Positions 13,180 to 18,396 of a stretch of DNA of 43,405 nucleotides are shown piece after piece (positions within the stretch are counted from its first letter, which is position 1; every line of letters starts with the position of its first letter). The notes under the pieces are model-generated. The model was not told the origin of the DNA. It did not search any database and was given only the letters and a program-made list of their open reading frames with translations. Source of the DNA: Chloroflexia bacterium (GTDB lineage Bacteria; Chloroflexota; Chloroflexia; DTKN01); NCBI GenBank assembly GCA_016928715.1, contig JAFGKG010000019.1, positions 1-43,405 of the forward strand. The letters are read 5' to 3'. A program made the position numbers and the translations under genes.

Positions 13180-14916
13180 TCAAACTATCGTTTCCAACTC
13201 GGCCAAGGCCCGCTCTACCCAGGCCGGCACATCCACCAGGGGAATGACCAGGACCGCCTCACGAGGCTCAGTGCGCCGCTTGACTTCGGCGCCCTGTTGC
13301 TGCAATGTTCGCTTGCTGAGGGCAATGCGCAAAGGCATCCCCAAGAGGTCGGCATCGGCAAACTTGAAGCCGGCCCGCTCGTCACGATCGTCCCAGAGCA
13401 CCGCGATACCGGCCCGCCTTAACTCCTCGTACAGGCTGGCACTGGCCTCCTGCAACTCGGGGGCATCGCCCAAGGAGAGCAAGTAGACCTGGTAGGGCGC
13501 CAACCGTACCGGCCAGAGGATGCCGCGCTCATCGTGATGCACCTCGACGCAGGCCGCCAACAAGCGGTCCAGGTCCACTTCAGCACAGGCCAATTGCCAG
13601 GGCCGTTCCTGACCGGCAGCATCCTGAAAGGTCGCCCCCAAGGCCCCGCTGTAACGCGAGCCGACTGCCCAGAGCCGCCCCAGGATTGTCCGTCGCTCCA
13701 GCACCAGCAGCTCCTGGCAGTGTGGACAGGGATCGCCCCCATGCACAGCGACTAAATCGGCGACGCTATCTGCGGTATAGTCCCGCCCATAGTTGACGTT
13801 GCGCAGGTGATAATCCTCTTTGTTCGCCCCCATAACCAGGTTGGGGCAATGCGGCAGCAGTTCGTCCACCACGATGTGGACCTGACGCAGCCCCACCTCC
13901 GGGGCCTGCCGGCGTATACCCAACGGCGAGGCGAAACCAGGCGAGGCGCCCAGGGCGGCAATCTCGTCTTCCTCGGCGGGGCGCAAGTCCTCCACGCCCA
14001 TATGTCGGGCCAGCTTGGATTCGTCCAGGTCCATGTCCCCCCGTACAATGACAAAGAAAAAACAATCCCCCGAGACCATCAAAACCGCCTTGGCTGTACG
14101 GCTCGCGGGCACCTCCAAAAAGTCGGCCAAGGCGGCAATCGTGGGACAATTCGGCGTGTATAGCTCCTCCAAAGAGCGGGCCTGCTCCGCTAAAGGCGTC
14201 GCCTTGGCCCGCCGTGCCACCCGCCCTTCGGCCACATAGCCACAAGCCGGGCAGCGGAGCAACGGCTCCGAACCAGGAACCTGGGGACAGAACAGGGCTC
14301 TGGCCGGCAGATCGTCCGGCCCCACCACGGCCTCCGCCGCCAAGAGCTCTAGACCACAAGCCCGGGCCAGTTGCCGCAGGCCCTGCTCCAGCTCCCTCAA
14401 CATATCCGCCAGGCTAGCCGAATCGGCCTGCAGAGCCAGCATCTCCAGGACCAGGGACTGAGCCGCCGCCAACGGGGACCCCGCCGGATGGCCCGTCCAA
14501 GAACGTTGACGGAAATCATAGAACAACTGCGGCAGCAGCCGGTGCGAACGCAGATCGGATCGCAGCAGCAGCGTCAACAAGGGGCCCAATCGATCGGGCC
14601 AAAACAGGGTGCGATGAGCCGCATCCTGCAGAGACAGCGACTCGCGGGCGATATGCTCCCAGGCGCTGCCCTCCTGCCAGGCGCTCGTCGGGAGCAACGG
14701 TGGCAGGGCAATCTCCTGCCCACCCAACGCAATCAGGGCCTTCTGGGCCAAAGACTGAAGTCGCCGCTGCACGCGTCGGCCCAGGGGAAGCCAGGCCCAG
14801 GCCCCAGCCCCCAGCGGCCGCAACAGGCCCGCCCGCAGCAGCAATTGATGGCTCACCTGCTCTGCCTCGGCCGGCGCCTGGTGTAGCGTGTAGGGGAAAA
14901 ACTGGGACATGCGCAT
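13180..14916 (-). CDS. ProRS-like protein with degenerate catalytic domain and intact INS editing domain
   Basis: 578 residues, like bacterial prolyl-tRNA synthetase, starting MRMSQFFPYTLHQAPAEAEQ. By my alignment from memory to E. coli ProRS, motif 1 and the class II scaffold are recognisable, but the ATP/proline residues are gone without gaps. The GPTHEE (TXE) loop reads WPDRLG (about 107-112). Motif 2 FRDE reads SWTG and RSREF reads AAQSL. Motif 3 GCYGIGVTR reads ACAEVDLDR. The INS domain (about 248-390) keeps the Lys equivalent to E. coli K279 (SRTAKAVL), the GxxxP loop (GFASP) and GAN...YH. CPAC and CPHC could bind zinc. The anticodon domain (about 470-578) is well conserved. I infer no aminoacylation; trans editing or regulation is possible. 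First gene of its operon. Confidence 0.85.
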   Translation of the reverse strand: MRMSQFFPYTLHQAPAEAEQVSHQLLLRAGLLRPLGAGAWAWLPLGRRVQRRLQSLAQKALIALGGQEIALPPLLPTSAWQEGSAWEHIARESLSLQDAAHRTLFWPDRLGPLLTLLLRSDLRSHRLLPQLFYDFRQRSWTGHPAGSPLAAAQSLVLEMLALQADSASLADMLRELEQGLRQLARACGLELLAAEAVVGPDDLPARALFCPQVPGSEPLLRCPACGYVAEGRVARRAKATPLAEQARSLEELYTPNCPTIAALADFLEVPASRTAKAVLMVSGDCFFFVIVRGDMDLDESKLARHMGVEDLRPAEEDEIAALGASPGFASPLGIRRQAPEVGLRQVHIVVDELLPHCPNLVMGANKEDYHLRNVNYGRDYTADSVADLVAVHGGDPCPHCQELLVLERRTILGRLWAVGSRYSGALGATFQDAAGQERPWQLACAEVDLDRLLAACVEVHHDERGILWPVRLAPYQVYLLSLGDAPELQEASASLYEELRRAGIAVLWDDRDERAGFKFADADLLGMPLRIALSKRTLQQQGAEVKRRTEPREAVLVIPLVDVPAWVERALAELETIV

Positions 14917-15016: not shown

Positions 15017-15541
15017 TTACAGCAGCGATTCGTCCCCGCAATGCTCGCGCATACTACAACCAACACAGCGAGCCGGCTCGTCATGGCTGCGCCAAACCTC
15101 GTCCCCGGCCACCGCCTGGCGCATTTCCTGCAAAACAAAGAGCAGGTCCTGACGCAGGGACTGATCATAGGGTATCTCGAACGTGTAATCCCGATAGCAC
15201 AATAGCCCATATGGCGGAGCGCCATAATTCTCCTCAACCAGCAGACAGTAAGCCGCCAACTGCAGTATGTCGGCCTCGTAGGGCTGGCAGGAACGGCGCG
15301 AGGGCTTGCACTCGACCGGGATCACGTCGCCGTGGCGACGCATCAGGTAATCCGGCCGACCCACCAAGCCATGCTGAGGCGAGCGCAGGGGGGCAGGAGG
15401 TATACGCCAATCGCGATCGTCCACGTAAACCACCCGCCCCTGGGGCAGGCCACTCTCAGCCCGCTCCCGCCCGGCTCGCCGCAGCAGCAGCAGGGCCAAC
15501 AGGGAGAGCAACAGCGCCGACAGCAGCAGAACAGGATTCAT
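15017..15541 (-). CDS. Cas4-like PD-(D/E)XK nuclease, C-terminal part, membrane-anchored
   Basis: 174 residues. One membrane helix at 2-20, followed by RRAGRER, which by the positive-inside rule puts the rest in the cytoplasm. The nuclease core shows Asp64 in GRPDYL, Glu77-x-Lys79 in PVECKP, and QLAAY at 94-98, the RecB/Cas4 motifs in order. The end has Cys159-x2-Cys-x5-Cys168, matching the three C-terminal ligands of the Cas4 [4Fe-4S] cluster. The first part of a Cas4 fold, with the metal-binding His and first Cys, is missing here but present in the gene just upstream. ATG follows that gene's stop by one base, with GGAGG before it. There is no CRISPR array nearby. Confidence 0.82.
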   Translation of the reverse strand: MNPVLLLSALLLSLLALLLLRRAGRERAESGLPQGRVVYVDDRDWRIPPAPLRSPQHGLVGRPDYLMRRHGDVIPVECKPSRRSCQPYEADILQLAAYCLLVEENYGAPPYGLLCYRDYTFEIPYDQSLRQDLLFVLQEMRQAVAGDEVWRSHDEPARCVGCSMREHCGDESLL

Positions 15542-15806: not shown

Positions 15807-16510
15807 CAATCCGGATAGACCGTAACCGGAGGGTAGGGGTCCAACGTTTCCGTAGGCAGCGGGGTCGGGGTGGCCGTGGGCAGCGCGGTCGCGGTCGAGG
15901 TTGGGGTAGCCGTAGGTACCGTGGGCGGAGCAGTCAGCGTCGGGGTGGCCGTGGGCAGCGGGGTGGAGGTCAGGGTGGCCGTAGGCTCTGTCGGACGAGG
16001 CGTAGCGGTAGGCTCCGTCGGGCGGGGCGTCGTCGTGGGCCTGGTCGGAAGCGGCGTGGGGAGCGGAGTGTCAGAGGGAGAAAGGGGTACATCCGTCGGC
16101 GGTAGGGGCGTGGCCGTGTCCGGCGGAGGCAGCGGCGTCGAGGTAGGCGGGATTGGCAAAGAGGTAGGGGATAGGCTCGGCCTCGCCGAGGGGGTTACCG
16201 TGGCAGAGGGTGTCGGAAGCGGTGTAGGCAAAGGCAGCGGGGTGGGCGTGGTGGGCGTCTCTGGCACTGGCGTCACGGTCTCTTGGCGTATCTCCCGCAC
16301 CAGGTTGGGATCCAGAGGAGCAAAACCGGCGCGGCCAAAGGGGTCCGCACTGTAATCGGCCAGCAGTAATGAACTGAGGCTGCCCTCTTGCCCAGAAAAA
16401 GGCGCGGCAAAGGCGGTCTGTACGGCCCAGGCCACCCCGAGCACGGCAGACAGCAGGCAGCCGATCGTCAGGATTACCCAGGCCAGCATATGCCTACGAG
16501 ATCTCTTCAT
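15803..16510 (-). CDS. Pro/Thr-rich membrane-anchored extracytoplasmic protein
   Basis: 235 residues. Basic start MKRSRRHM, then a membrane helix or uncleaved signal (about 10-34). After a short linker (about 36-78), residues 79-225 are almost entirely Pro, Thr, Ser and Ala in loose PTATPTP-type repeats, such as RPTEPTATPRPTEPTA. Such tails are common in Chloroflexota surface proteins and are likely extended, perhaps glycosylated, wall-spanning stalks. No folded domain follows, so binding partners are unknown. The ATG overlaps the cyclase stop by four bases (ATGA), and its own stop overlaps the Cas4-like start by four bases, so translation is tightly coupled. Confidence 0.8.
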   Translation of the reverse strand: MKRSRRHMLAWVILTIGCLLSAVLGVAWAVQTAFAAPFSGQEGSLSSLLLADYSADPFGRAGFAPLDPNLVREIRQETVTPVPETPTTPTPLPLPTPLPTPSATVTPSARPSLSPTSLPIPPTSTPLPPPDTATPLPPTDVPLSPSDTPLPTPLPTRPTTTPRPTEPTATPRPTEPTATLTSTPLPTATPTLTAPPTVPTATPTSTATALPTATPTPLPTETLDPYPPVTVYPDW

Positions 16511-18396
16511 GCACCCACATCCACCTGTTCGGCGATACCCTCTACGGCATAGATACGCACTGGCTCACTTTTGCCCTTCAAACTGATCAGGCCAAGGTTA
16601 CGGAAAACATACTGCTCCTTGTCTTTGAGCATTTCATAGGTGTACTCACTGACCAGAATATCGTACTCGGGGAACTCTTTATTCAAACCCTGGATACGCG
16701 CACTCAAGTTGACGGAATCTCCAATGACGGTGTATTCCATGCGGTCCTTCGAGCCCACTGTTCCGGCGACCACGTCACCCGTATTGATACCGATGCCCAT
16801 ACGAATGGGCACTTCGCCCCGAGTCAGTCGCTCTGCATTCAACTGGGCCATCCGCCGCCGCATACCCAGAGCGGTGCGCACCGCCCGGTCGGCATGATCG
16901 GGATGATACACCGGCGCGCCAAAGACGACCAGGGTCGAGTCGCCGCCAAATTTATTGACCGTGCCCCCCTGCTGCTTGGCTACCTCTACCATGGCCGCAA
17001 AGTATTCGTTCAAGATATGCACCATAACGGCCGGATCGTACTGCTCCGAGAGCCGGGTAAAATCGCGAATGTCTGAAAAGAGCATCGAGACAACCCGTTT
17101 CTCACCTTGGACCCGGATACTGCCTGAAAGCAGCCCTTCAGAAACATCCCGGCTGACGAAACGGCCAAAGGCATCGCGAATAAACTCTTTTACCCGCAAT
17201 CCCTGGACCATCCGATTGAAGGCGTGCGCCAGGACACCGATCTCGTCCGTAGAGCGGACCACAATTTTGCGCGAGAGATCGCCGGACTCCACCTGGCTGG
17301 CCGCACTGACCAGATCCTGGATAGGCCGAACAATCTGGGCGGAAACCCAGAGACCCACCAAAACCACGGCCACCACGGCCAGACTAAAGAGCAAGGTCAG
17401 CAGGAGACGGGGCCAAACCTGCTCCTGGCCAACTCCCGGCAGGGCCACCGAAAATACAGCCATATCGGCGCCATGGCGGGACTCGAAAGCGCCAAAGGCC
17501 TCGACGAGCTCCCCGCTCAACTCGAGCTTGCGCGTTAGATAGCCAAAGTCCTCTTGCTCCAGGACTTGCTGATACAAGGTGGGGGCCAACTGCAGGCGGC
17601 TAGCCTCTTGAAGGGTTGTTGCAAGCACCTGTCCGTCCGGCCCATAGACCGTCACCTCCCGAGAGAGGGACAGATCGGTATCTCGCCCGGTTGAGAAAAG
17701 GGGCCGGCCAGCCATGCGATGAATCAGGCGTTGCAAATCCATCCCCACCAAGACGACTCCTACGGTATAGCCGTCCTGATTTTTAATGGGACCACTGATG
17801 TAAAAGGTCCAGCCCCAGGGGGTATGGACCAAATCAGCGAACTTGTCCCCAATATCGTCGACATGCCCAGCTACCACCTGCTGACAGACAGGCCAATCCC
17901 CCGTGTAAAAGCCACTCTCCTCATAATAAAGCCCCGGCGATTCACTCGTCGTATCACGTCGCAAAGAAAGGACCGCCGTACCGTCCAAAGTGACGATATG
18001 GACCAGATCGAGGCCGGCATTGAGCGCAATGGGGCAAGCTAAATCAGAAAGGCGCTGCTGATCCTGCTGTTGCAGCGCCTCGCTCACCCCCTGGGTATAG
18101 GCAATCGCCCGCAATGAGGTCAACAACTCCCGCTCGACATAGACCACTTCGTCCGTAGCGTAATGGCCGGCCTGCCATAACTGGTTTAGCAGGCGTTCAT
18201 AGAGTCGTTCCGCAAAAACCTGGGCCAGGAAATAGCTCGCCGCGACAGCCAAAAGGAGGGCCAGCACCAAATAGGGCGCAATCACCTTAAAGCGCAATTG
18301 AGACCAAAAACTGGGCAGCGGCGGCGAGACTTGCTCCTCCAACGACAATGGCTCCACCGTCGACAAAGAATCAGACTCTTGTTGCACGGACCACAT
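16507..18396 (-). CDS. Membrane class III nucleotidyl cyclase with sensor and HAMP domains
   Basis: 629 residues. Membrane helices at about 39-59 and 329-351 flank an extracytoplasmic sensor of about 265 residues, probably Cache-like. HAMP follows (352-405), then a class III cyclase domain (about 432-620). Catalytic residues seen: metal Asp442 (MLFSDIRDFT) and Asp486 (VNKFGGDS), substrate-contacting Lys482 and Asp560 (EYTVIGDSVNLSAR), and transition-state Asn563/Arg567. Lys with Asp/Thr is the adenylate cyclase pattern, so cAMP is likely, though cGMP is not excluded. It is 12 bases after the DUF3307 gene in one operon. Which signal the sensor reads is unknown. Confidence 0.92.
   Translation of the reverse strand: MWSVQQESDSLSTVEPLSLEEQVSPPLPSFWSQLRFKVIAPYLVLALLLAVAASYFLAQVFAERLYERLLNQLWQAGHYATDEVVYVERELLTSLRAIAYTQGVSEALQQQDQQRLSDLACPIALNAGLDLVHIVTLDGTAVLSLRRDTTSESPGLYYEESGFYTGDWPVCQQVVAGHVDDIGDKFADLVHTPWGWTFYISGPIKNQDGYTVGVVLVGMDLQRLIHRMAGRPLFSTGRDTDLSLSREVTVYGPDGQVLATTLQEASRLQLAPTLYQQVLEQEDFGYLTRKLELSGELVEAFGAFESRHGADMAVFSVALPGVGQEQVWPRLLLTLLFSLAVVAVVLVGLWVSAQIVRPIQDLVSAASQVESGDLSRKIVVRSTDEIGVLAHAFNRMVQGLRVKEFIRDAFGRFVSRDVSEGLLSGSIRVQGEKRVVSMLFSDIRDFTRLSEQYDPAVMVHILNEYFAAMVEVAKQQGGTVNKFGGDSTLVVFGAPVYHPDHADRAVRTALGMRRRMAQLNAERLTRGEVPIRMGIGINTGDVVAGTVGSKDRMEYTVIGDSVNLSARIQGLNKEFPEYDILVSEYTYEMLKDKEQYVFRNLGLISLKGKSEPVRIYAVEGIAEQVDVGA

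Follow-up and report, generated by a model that had tools for sequence, protein, structure and literature searches.

The ProRS-like protein encoded in our window, the 43,405-nucleotide stretch of Chloroflexia DNA analyzed here, is very probably an editing-only descendant of a bacterial ProRS that clears Ala-tRNA(Pro) in trans, which we call ProRS-ed. We also consider it likely that the phylum holds a new class of such multi-domain trans-editors. They would have arisen again and again, no fewer than 6 times on the class tree and probably more often across the phylum, each time a resident ProRS beside an editing-less archaeal-type ProRS had its synthetase site disabled or excised, and they would read tRNA(Pro) through its anticodon, unlike the acceptor-stem-reading ProXp-ala.

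Loss of synthetase residues in a full-length gene

An earlier note on this DNA, made from the sequence by eye, had placed the gene correctly but without its strand, which is minus (Table 1). The start of the CDS, residue 3 of open reading frame P0001, aligns with MRTSQ of E. coli ProRS. Codon statistics are equally good across every domain and the frame contains no stops or breaks, so the gene looks genuinely coding rather than misassembled. Upstream on the same strand, an ORF at 15017-15541 resembles a Cas4/PD-(D/E)XK-type nuclease and another at 16507-18396 a HAMP-adenylate cyclase; both were judged by eye, and this reading gave no sign of a functional link between them and the ProRS-like gene.

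Table 1. Features of the ProRS-like gene, in window coordinates
Feature	Coordinates	Strand	Details
ProRS-like CDS, putatively editing-only	13180..14916	minus	578 aa; ATG at 14916, stop at 13180
N-terminal catalytic-domain remnant, residues 1-222	14251..14916	minus	conserved positions kept 25/72
Eroded TXE loop FWPDRLGPLL, residues 105-114	14575..14604	minus	alignment
Eroded motif 2 RSWTGHPAGSPLAAAQSLVL, residues 138-157	14446..14505	minus	motif-2 Arg and Glu lost
INS editing domain, residues 222-408	13693..14253	minus	Pfam tRNA_edit 6e-25; 14/17 conserved positions kept
INS Lys276 (E. coli K279)	14089..14091	minus	alignment
Editing-site GxxxP loop (GFASP), residues 327-331	13924..13938	minus	alignment
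INS His370 (E. coli H369), within GANKEDYH	13807..13809	minus	alignment
Eroded motif 3 LACAEVDLDRLLA, residues 442-454	13555..13593	minus	GIG replaced by EVD, Arg451 kept
Anticodon-binding domain, residues 464-578 and stop	13180..13527	minus	Pfam HGTP_anticodon 2e-14; 19/19 positions kept

We aligned the window protein to the ProRS of E. coli and to 55 ProRSs from outside the Chloroflexota, and counted a position as conserved when 93% or more of the reference ProRSs agreed there. The TXE loop, VLGPTHEEVI in E. coli, is replaced by FWPDRLGPLL (T109R, E111G). The earlier note had recognized this replacement, but its register (THEE to DRLG) was off by one residue. Motif 2 has changed from KFRDEVRPRFGVMRSREF to RSWTG-HPAGSPLAAAQSL (R140W, E142G, R151A, E154Q), with an Arg present two residues off the motif-2 Arg position, and motif 3 has changed from MGCYGIGVTR to LACAEVDLDR, in which the glycines are gone and R450 is kept. 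These losses are as the note had read them, and the protein is full-length as it had said; its description of the core as gap-free holds nearly, since very short gaps do occur there.

The editing half of the protein tells the opposite story. INS retains I263, L266, K279, D350, and H369 (E. coli numbering) along with the GFASP loop and GAN..YH, and is flanked by zinc-ribbon-like CxxC pairs, one on each side (CPAC, CPHC). The features that define the INS superfamily are all present, namely a PF04073 domain (6e-25), the catalytic Lys (K276, with H370), and the GxxxP loop. Conserved positions are kept at 25 of 72 in the N-terminal catalytic part, 9 of 20 in the C-terminal catalytic part, 14 of 17 in INS, and 19 of 19 in the anticodon-binding domain (ABD), while most intact relatives in the class keep about 51-62, 15-18, 13-16, and 17-19 in the same 4 parts. 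Taken together, 34 of 92 catalytic positions are kept versus 33 of 36 in INS and the ABD (Fisher p=8.6e-9), a contrast which, with the normal codon statistics and unbroken frame, upholds the note's case against frameshift or random decay. We also considered an error of alignment register or a frameshift as the source of the losses, and the alignment and codon statistics ruled out both.

Profile searches agree with this division. Pfam matched tRNA_edit and HGTP_anticodon in the window protein, and tRNA-synt_2b, the synthetase core, is absent from its Pfam matches. The protein falls below both NCBIfam ProRS cut-offs, NF006625 (364.5 vs 558 bits) and TIGR00409 (279.7 vs 306.7 bits). Its best family matches are nonetheless to ProRS, and not of the threonyl type by which the ThrRS-ed family is defined.

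An AlphaFold2 model built with 49 homologues (pLDDT 89.4, pTM 0.84) has the full ProRS fold, and its best PDB match is the E. faecalis ProRS 2j3l (TM 0.89 over 575 columns), with the same domain order. Confidence is lowest around what were once the TXE loop and motif 2, with a pLDDT of about 59 at residues 141-150. Because the full fold is predicted, the loss appears to be one of active-site residues and not of scaffold; as modeled, the scaffold is kept and the synthetase site alone is erased.

A complete archaeal-type ProRS in the same genome

The earlier note had suggested looking for a second, catalytically complete ProRS, possibly archaeal-type, and the genome contains one: a 474-aa archaeal-type enzyme on contig C133 that scores 562 bits against TIGR00408 (cut-off 437). 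Direct reading of its sequence finds motif regions that look complete (RPTSET, RWEMRTR...TTEFLWQE), and Pfam finds no tRNA_edit (INS) domain in it. The presence of this enzyme rules out the window protein as the sole ProRS of the cell.

The genome was assembled as a MAG, with 89% completeness and 5% contamination. A contaminant origin for either contig was considered and is unsupported: recA is single-copy in the genome, lies on the window contig 2.2 kb from the gene, and is closest to class members, and C133 is typical of the genome in its tetranucleotide profile. In that profile, the most atypical of 22 stretches is the left half of the window.

All 3 tRNA-Pro genes carry C1:G72, A73, G35, and G36, which are the elements used by bacterial ProRS, INS, and ABD. 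No ProXp-ala-like protein was found in this 89% complete MAG. The only other INS-superfamily protein is a single-domain, ProXp-x-like protein on contig C148, whose best PDB match, 2cx5 (TTHA1699), is classed as ProXp-x in a review (PMC11295145). This protein could supply weak Ala-tRNA(Pro) editing.

Members of the INS superfamily vary in substrate (PMC11295145), and we compared the editing pocket at few positions only, so one might propose a trans-editor that acts mainly on something other than Ala-tRNA(Pro), such as Cys-, Abu-, or azetidine-tRNA(Pro) or a different tRNA. We regard this as unlikely given that the domain descends from the INS of a cis-editing ProRS with K279, H369, I263, L266, and D350 kept, that the ABD, which limits INS to Pro anticodons, is fully kept, and that for Abu a ProXp-x-like protein is already present in the genome.

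Recurrent erosion in the class

INS-type proteins were found in 80 of the 158 genomes surveyed in the class, and archaeal-type ProRS in 113. About 19 INS-type copies from several genera are eroded and 3 more are partly eroded (G033/G049/G057). Eroded synthetase sites occur in the window genome, a Chloroflexus-like genus, a Roseiflexus-like genus, G065, G080, and G097/G098, while congeners or sisters of eroded copies in G064, G100, G070, and G081 have intact sites. In the Chloroflexus-like copies the TXE/motif-2 stretch is deleted. Elsewhere, the residues replacing motif 2 and TXE are unrelated between eroded lineages, with no conserved substitute. K279 and H369, by contrast, are kept in all the eroded copies examined whose sequence spans these positions.

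Eroded or partly eroded copies are found almost entirely alongside the archaeal-type enzyme (21 copies in genomes with it, 1 in a genome without). The exception is in a Roseiflexus-like MAG that is 82% complete and whose genus-mates have the archaeal-type enzyme; bar this copy, all full-length INS-type ProRSs examined in class genomes without archaeal-type ProRS are intact. The association is one-directional, since intact INS-type copies also occur beside the archaeal-type enzyme (27 in genomes with it, 24 in genomes without). An independent-pairs test of erosion against archaeal-type ProRS is powerless here because the intact sisters carry the archaeal-type enzyme too.

On a careful tree of the class, computed from INS and ABD columns only, the eroded state requires a minimum of 6 independent changes, and supported branches force 5 of these. 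A single origin of all eroded copies was tried as a one-clade constraint on the same columns and was rejected (p-AU 0.008). Placing just the Chloroflexus-like and Roseiflexus-like copies in one clade was not rejected (p-AU 0.23); in a later tree with more sequences, an intact sister, L200, lies beside the Roseiflexus-like group. One Roseiflexus-like genome, G107, has 2 different eroded copies (L204, L205).

Three genomes (G020, G043, G055) have an archaeal-type ProRS yet no detectable tRNA_edit protein, and so apparently manage with no INS-type editing of tRNA(Pro), which suggests that such editing is dispensable. A mirror image of the window protein is seen in 2 Herpetosiphon-like genomes without archaeal-type ProRS: here a second INS-type ProRS (L114 in G035, L115 in G037) has an intact synthetase site and a decayed editing domain, with 8 of 17 positions kept, K279 replaced, and GAN changed to GAA.

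Excised cores and gene neighborhood in other classes

From other classes we took mainly genomes with both ProRS types, and 20 controls without archaeal-type ProRS, which is not a random sample. INS-type ProRS was intact in all 20 controls, whereas several copies from the genomes with both types are eroded (L255-L257, L261-L266). A phylum-level tree gives 9-12 changes, a count that is indicative only, coming from a quick search with many weak forks.

One family, f17 (L268-L272, L313-L322), goes further. Its proteins, about 390-410 aa long, consist of a short ProRS N-terminal remnant followed by INS and the anticodon domain; the alignment shows the catalytic core to be excised, and Pfam detects tRNA_edit and HGTP_anticodon alone. 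Judging from sequence, f17 is what an end product of core erosion would look like. These proteins are possibly misannotated in databases.

In many relatives (L273-L283, L285, L325-L328) the INS-type gene adjoins the archaeal-type ProRS gene on the same strand, mostly downstream and mostly across a gap of 18-186 bp. Most of these adjoining copies are intact and one (G214) is partly eroded; eroded copies are usually outside the archaeal-type ProRS operon. In a relative with a large genome (G376), the INS-type ProRS beside the archaeal-type gene, L323, appears in pieces.

The earlier note had also raised a regulatory pseudo-synthetase. Such a protein, regulatory or tRNA-holding in the manner of HisZ or Gcn2, would bind tRNA(Pro) through its anticodon domain and hydrolyze nothing. 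Dead synthetase paralogues with regulatory roles exist (synthetase-like proteins are reviewed in PMC9437257), and the best-kept part of the window protein is its anticodon domain. Recurrent loss that always leaves the editing site, with its Lys and His, speaks against this reading, as does f17, which retains INS though the catalytic domain is excised. Constraint on INS, moreover, is about as strong as it is in intact enzymes, and no fused regulatory domain was seen, so we think this role very unlikely. The note's other suggestion, an anticodon-reading trans-editing factor for Ala-tRNA(Pro), gains support from the INS-less partner as well as from the recurrent loss with the editing site kept, and it is the reading that this sequence evidence favors.

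Selection on eroded copies

Pairwise dN/dS (Nei-Gojobori) was calculated among relatives; the window gene itself has no close relative. Intact groups have values of 0.025-0.06 in the catalytic part, 0.06-0.10 in INS, and 0.06-0.125 in the ABD, while the Chloroflexus-like and Roseiflexus-like eroded groups have 0.09-0.37, 0.05-0.20, and 0.06-0.18, respectively. Many dS values exceed 1, so closer pairs weigh most, such as L108/L189 (catalytic 0.15, INS 0.07, ABD 0.12) and L106/L201 (0.22, 0.19, 0.10). Constraint in the eroded clades is relaxed mainly in the catalytic part and hardly in INS or the ABD. The closest pairs in f17 have an overall dN/dS of about 0.1-0.25.

A pseudogene on its way out might be suspected from the long terminal branch of the window gene in the tree and from the functional replacement ProRS in the genome. 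We hold this to be highly improbable: the frame is open with normal codon statistics in all domains, loss is limited to the catalytic part, relatives in the same state are under purifying selection, and such copies have been retained in parallel in many lineages.

The kept fold, the kept motif-3 Arg, and a catalytic dN/dS below 1 in eroded relatives could be taken as signs of a synthetase with an altered active site, activating another amino acid or transferring to a carrier. That dN/dS is also as expected if the catalytic part remains as a structural scaffold. The motif-2 Arg and Glu and the TXE loop have been lost without a conserved replacement and differently in different lineages, the Chloroflexus-like copies have deleted the segment, and f17 lacks the catalytic domain, all of which make an altered synthetase scarcely credible.

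Proposed mechanism

The INS of E. coli ProRS hydrolyzes Ala-tRNA(Pro) with no tRNA specificity of its own; specificity is given by the anticodon domain, about 70 Angstrom away, through G35 and G36, and changes in the acceptor stem are immaterial to editing (PMC3973320, PMC11295145). This dependence explains why exactly INS and the ABD survive while the core can be eroded or excised, and it leads us to propose that the Ala-tRNA(Pro) which the archaeal-type ProRS produces is hydrolyzed in trans by ProRS-ed.

In this scheme, the working ProRS of the cell would be the acquired archaeal-type enzyme, which, without INS, would sometimes load alanine onto tRNA(Pro). The window protein, expected to be expressed, folded, and catalytically active, would no longer bind ATP and proline properly and so would charge no tRNA and make no Pro-tRNA. 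Its anticodon domain would bind the Pro anticodon (G35, G36), allowing the CCA end to reach the INS pocket, where the Lys276/His370 site would hydrolyze the putative substrate, Ala-tRNA(Pro). Proline would be kept out by its size and Ala-tRNA(Ala) by its anticodon.

Comparison with known systems

Our search of the open literature, which covered open-licence papers and in which absence is not proof, found no description of an editing-only ProRS. The proline trans-editors in one review are single-domain only (PMC11295145), and ProRSx is listed among ProRS duplicates in another (PMC9437257). A ProRS that only edits and brings its own anticodon reader would be a new architecture, and "proline--tRNA ligase" may be an incorrect annotation for many proteins of this phylum. 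The graded series of intact, partly eroded, eroded, and core-excised copies within one phylum offers a natural experiment on separating synthesis from editing. The series also bears on how INS and the anticodon domain communicate over about 70 Angstrom when the synthetic site is unneeded; this communication has been named an open question (PMC3973320).

The window protein resembles bacterial INS-type ProRSs (E. coli, E. faecalis 2j3l) in being full-length with the same domain order and fold, an INS site, and an anticodon domain, and differs from them in its lost synthetase residues and its scores under the NCBIfam cut-offs. Like Streptomyces ProRSx (PMC9437257), it is a second, diverged bacterial ProRS, but ProRSx still charges a tRNA, which the window protein, to judge by its residues, should not. 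It is predicted to do the same job as ProXp-ala, clearing Ala-tRNA(Pro) in trans in cells whose ProRS has no INS; ProXp-ala, however, has just one domain and recognizes acceptor bases 72/73, whereas the window protein has 578 aa, several domains, and a predicted anticodon reader. With ProXp-x (2cx5/TTHA1699) it shares the INS superfamily and, by prediction, trans-editing, but ProXp-x is a single domain that prefers Abu-tRNA with A73.

As a functional kind, the editing-only synthetase is already known from ThrRS-ed, which occurs in some archaea as a truncated ThrRS without a catalytic site and is the partner of ThrRS-cat (PMC9976931, PMC11295145). Like ThrRS-ed, the window protein has editing and anticodon domains and apparently no working catalytic site, and another synthetase, one with no editing domain, serves the same amino acid. 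The excised-core form of f17 parallels ThrRS-ed. The differences are that the editing domain is of the unrelated INS/tRNA_edit type, the amino acid is proline and not threonine, the hosts are bacteria and not archaea, the partner synthetase belongs to another, archaeal type instead of being a sister copy, and the dead core is still present in the window protein.
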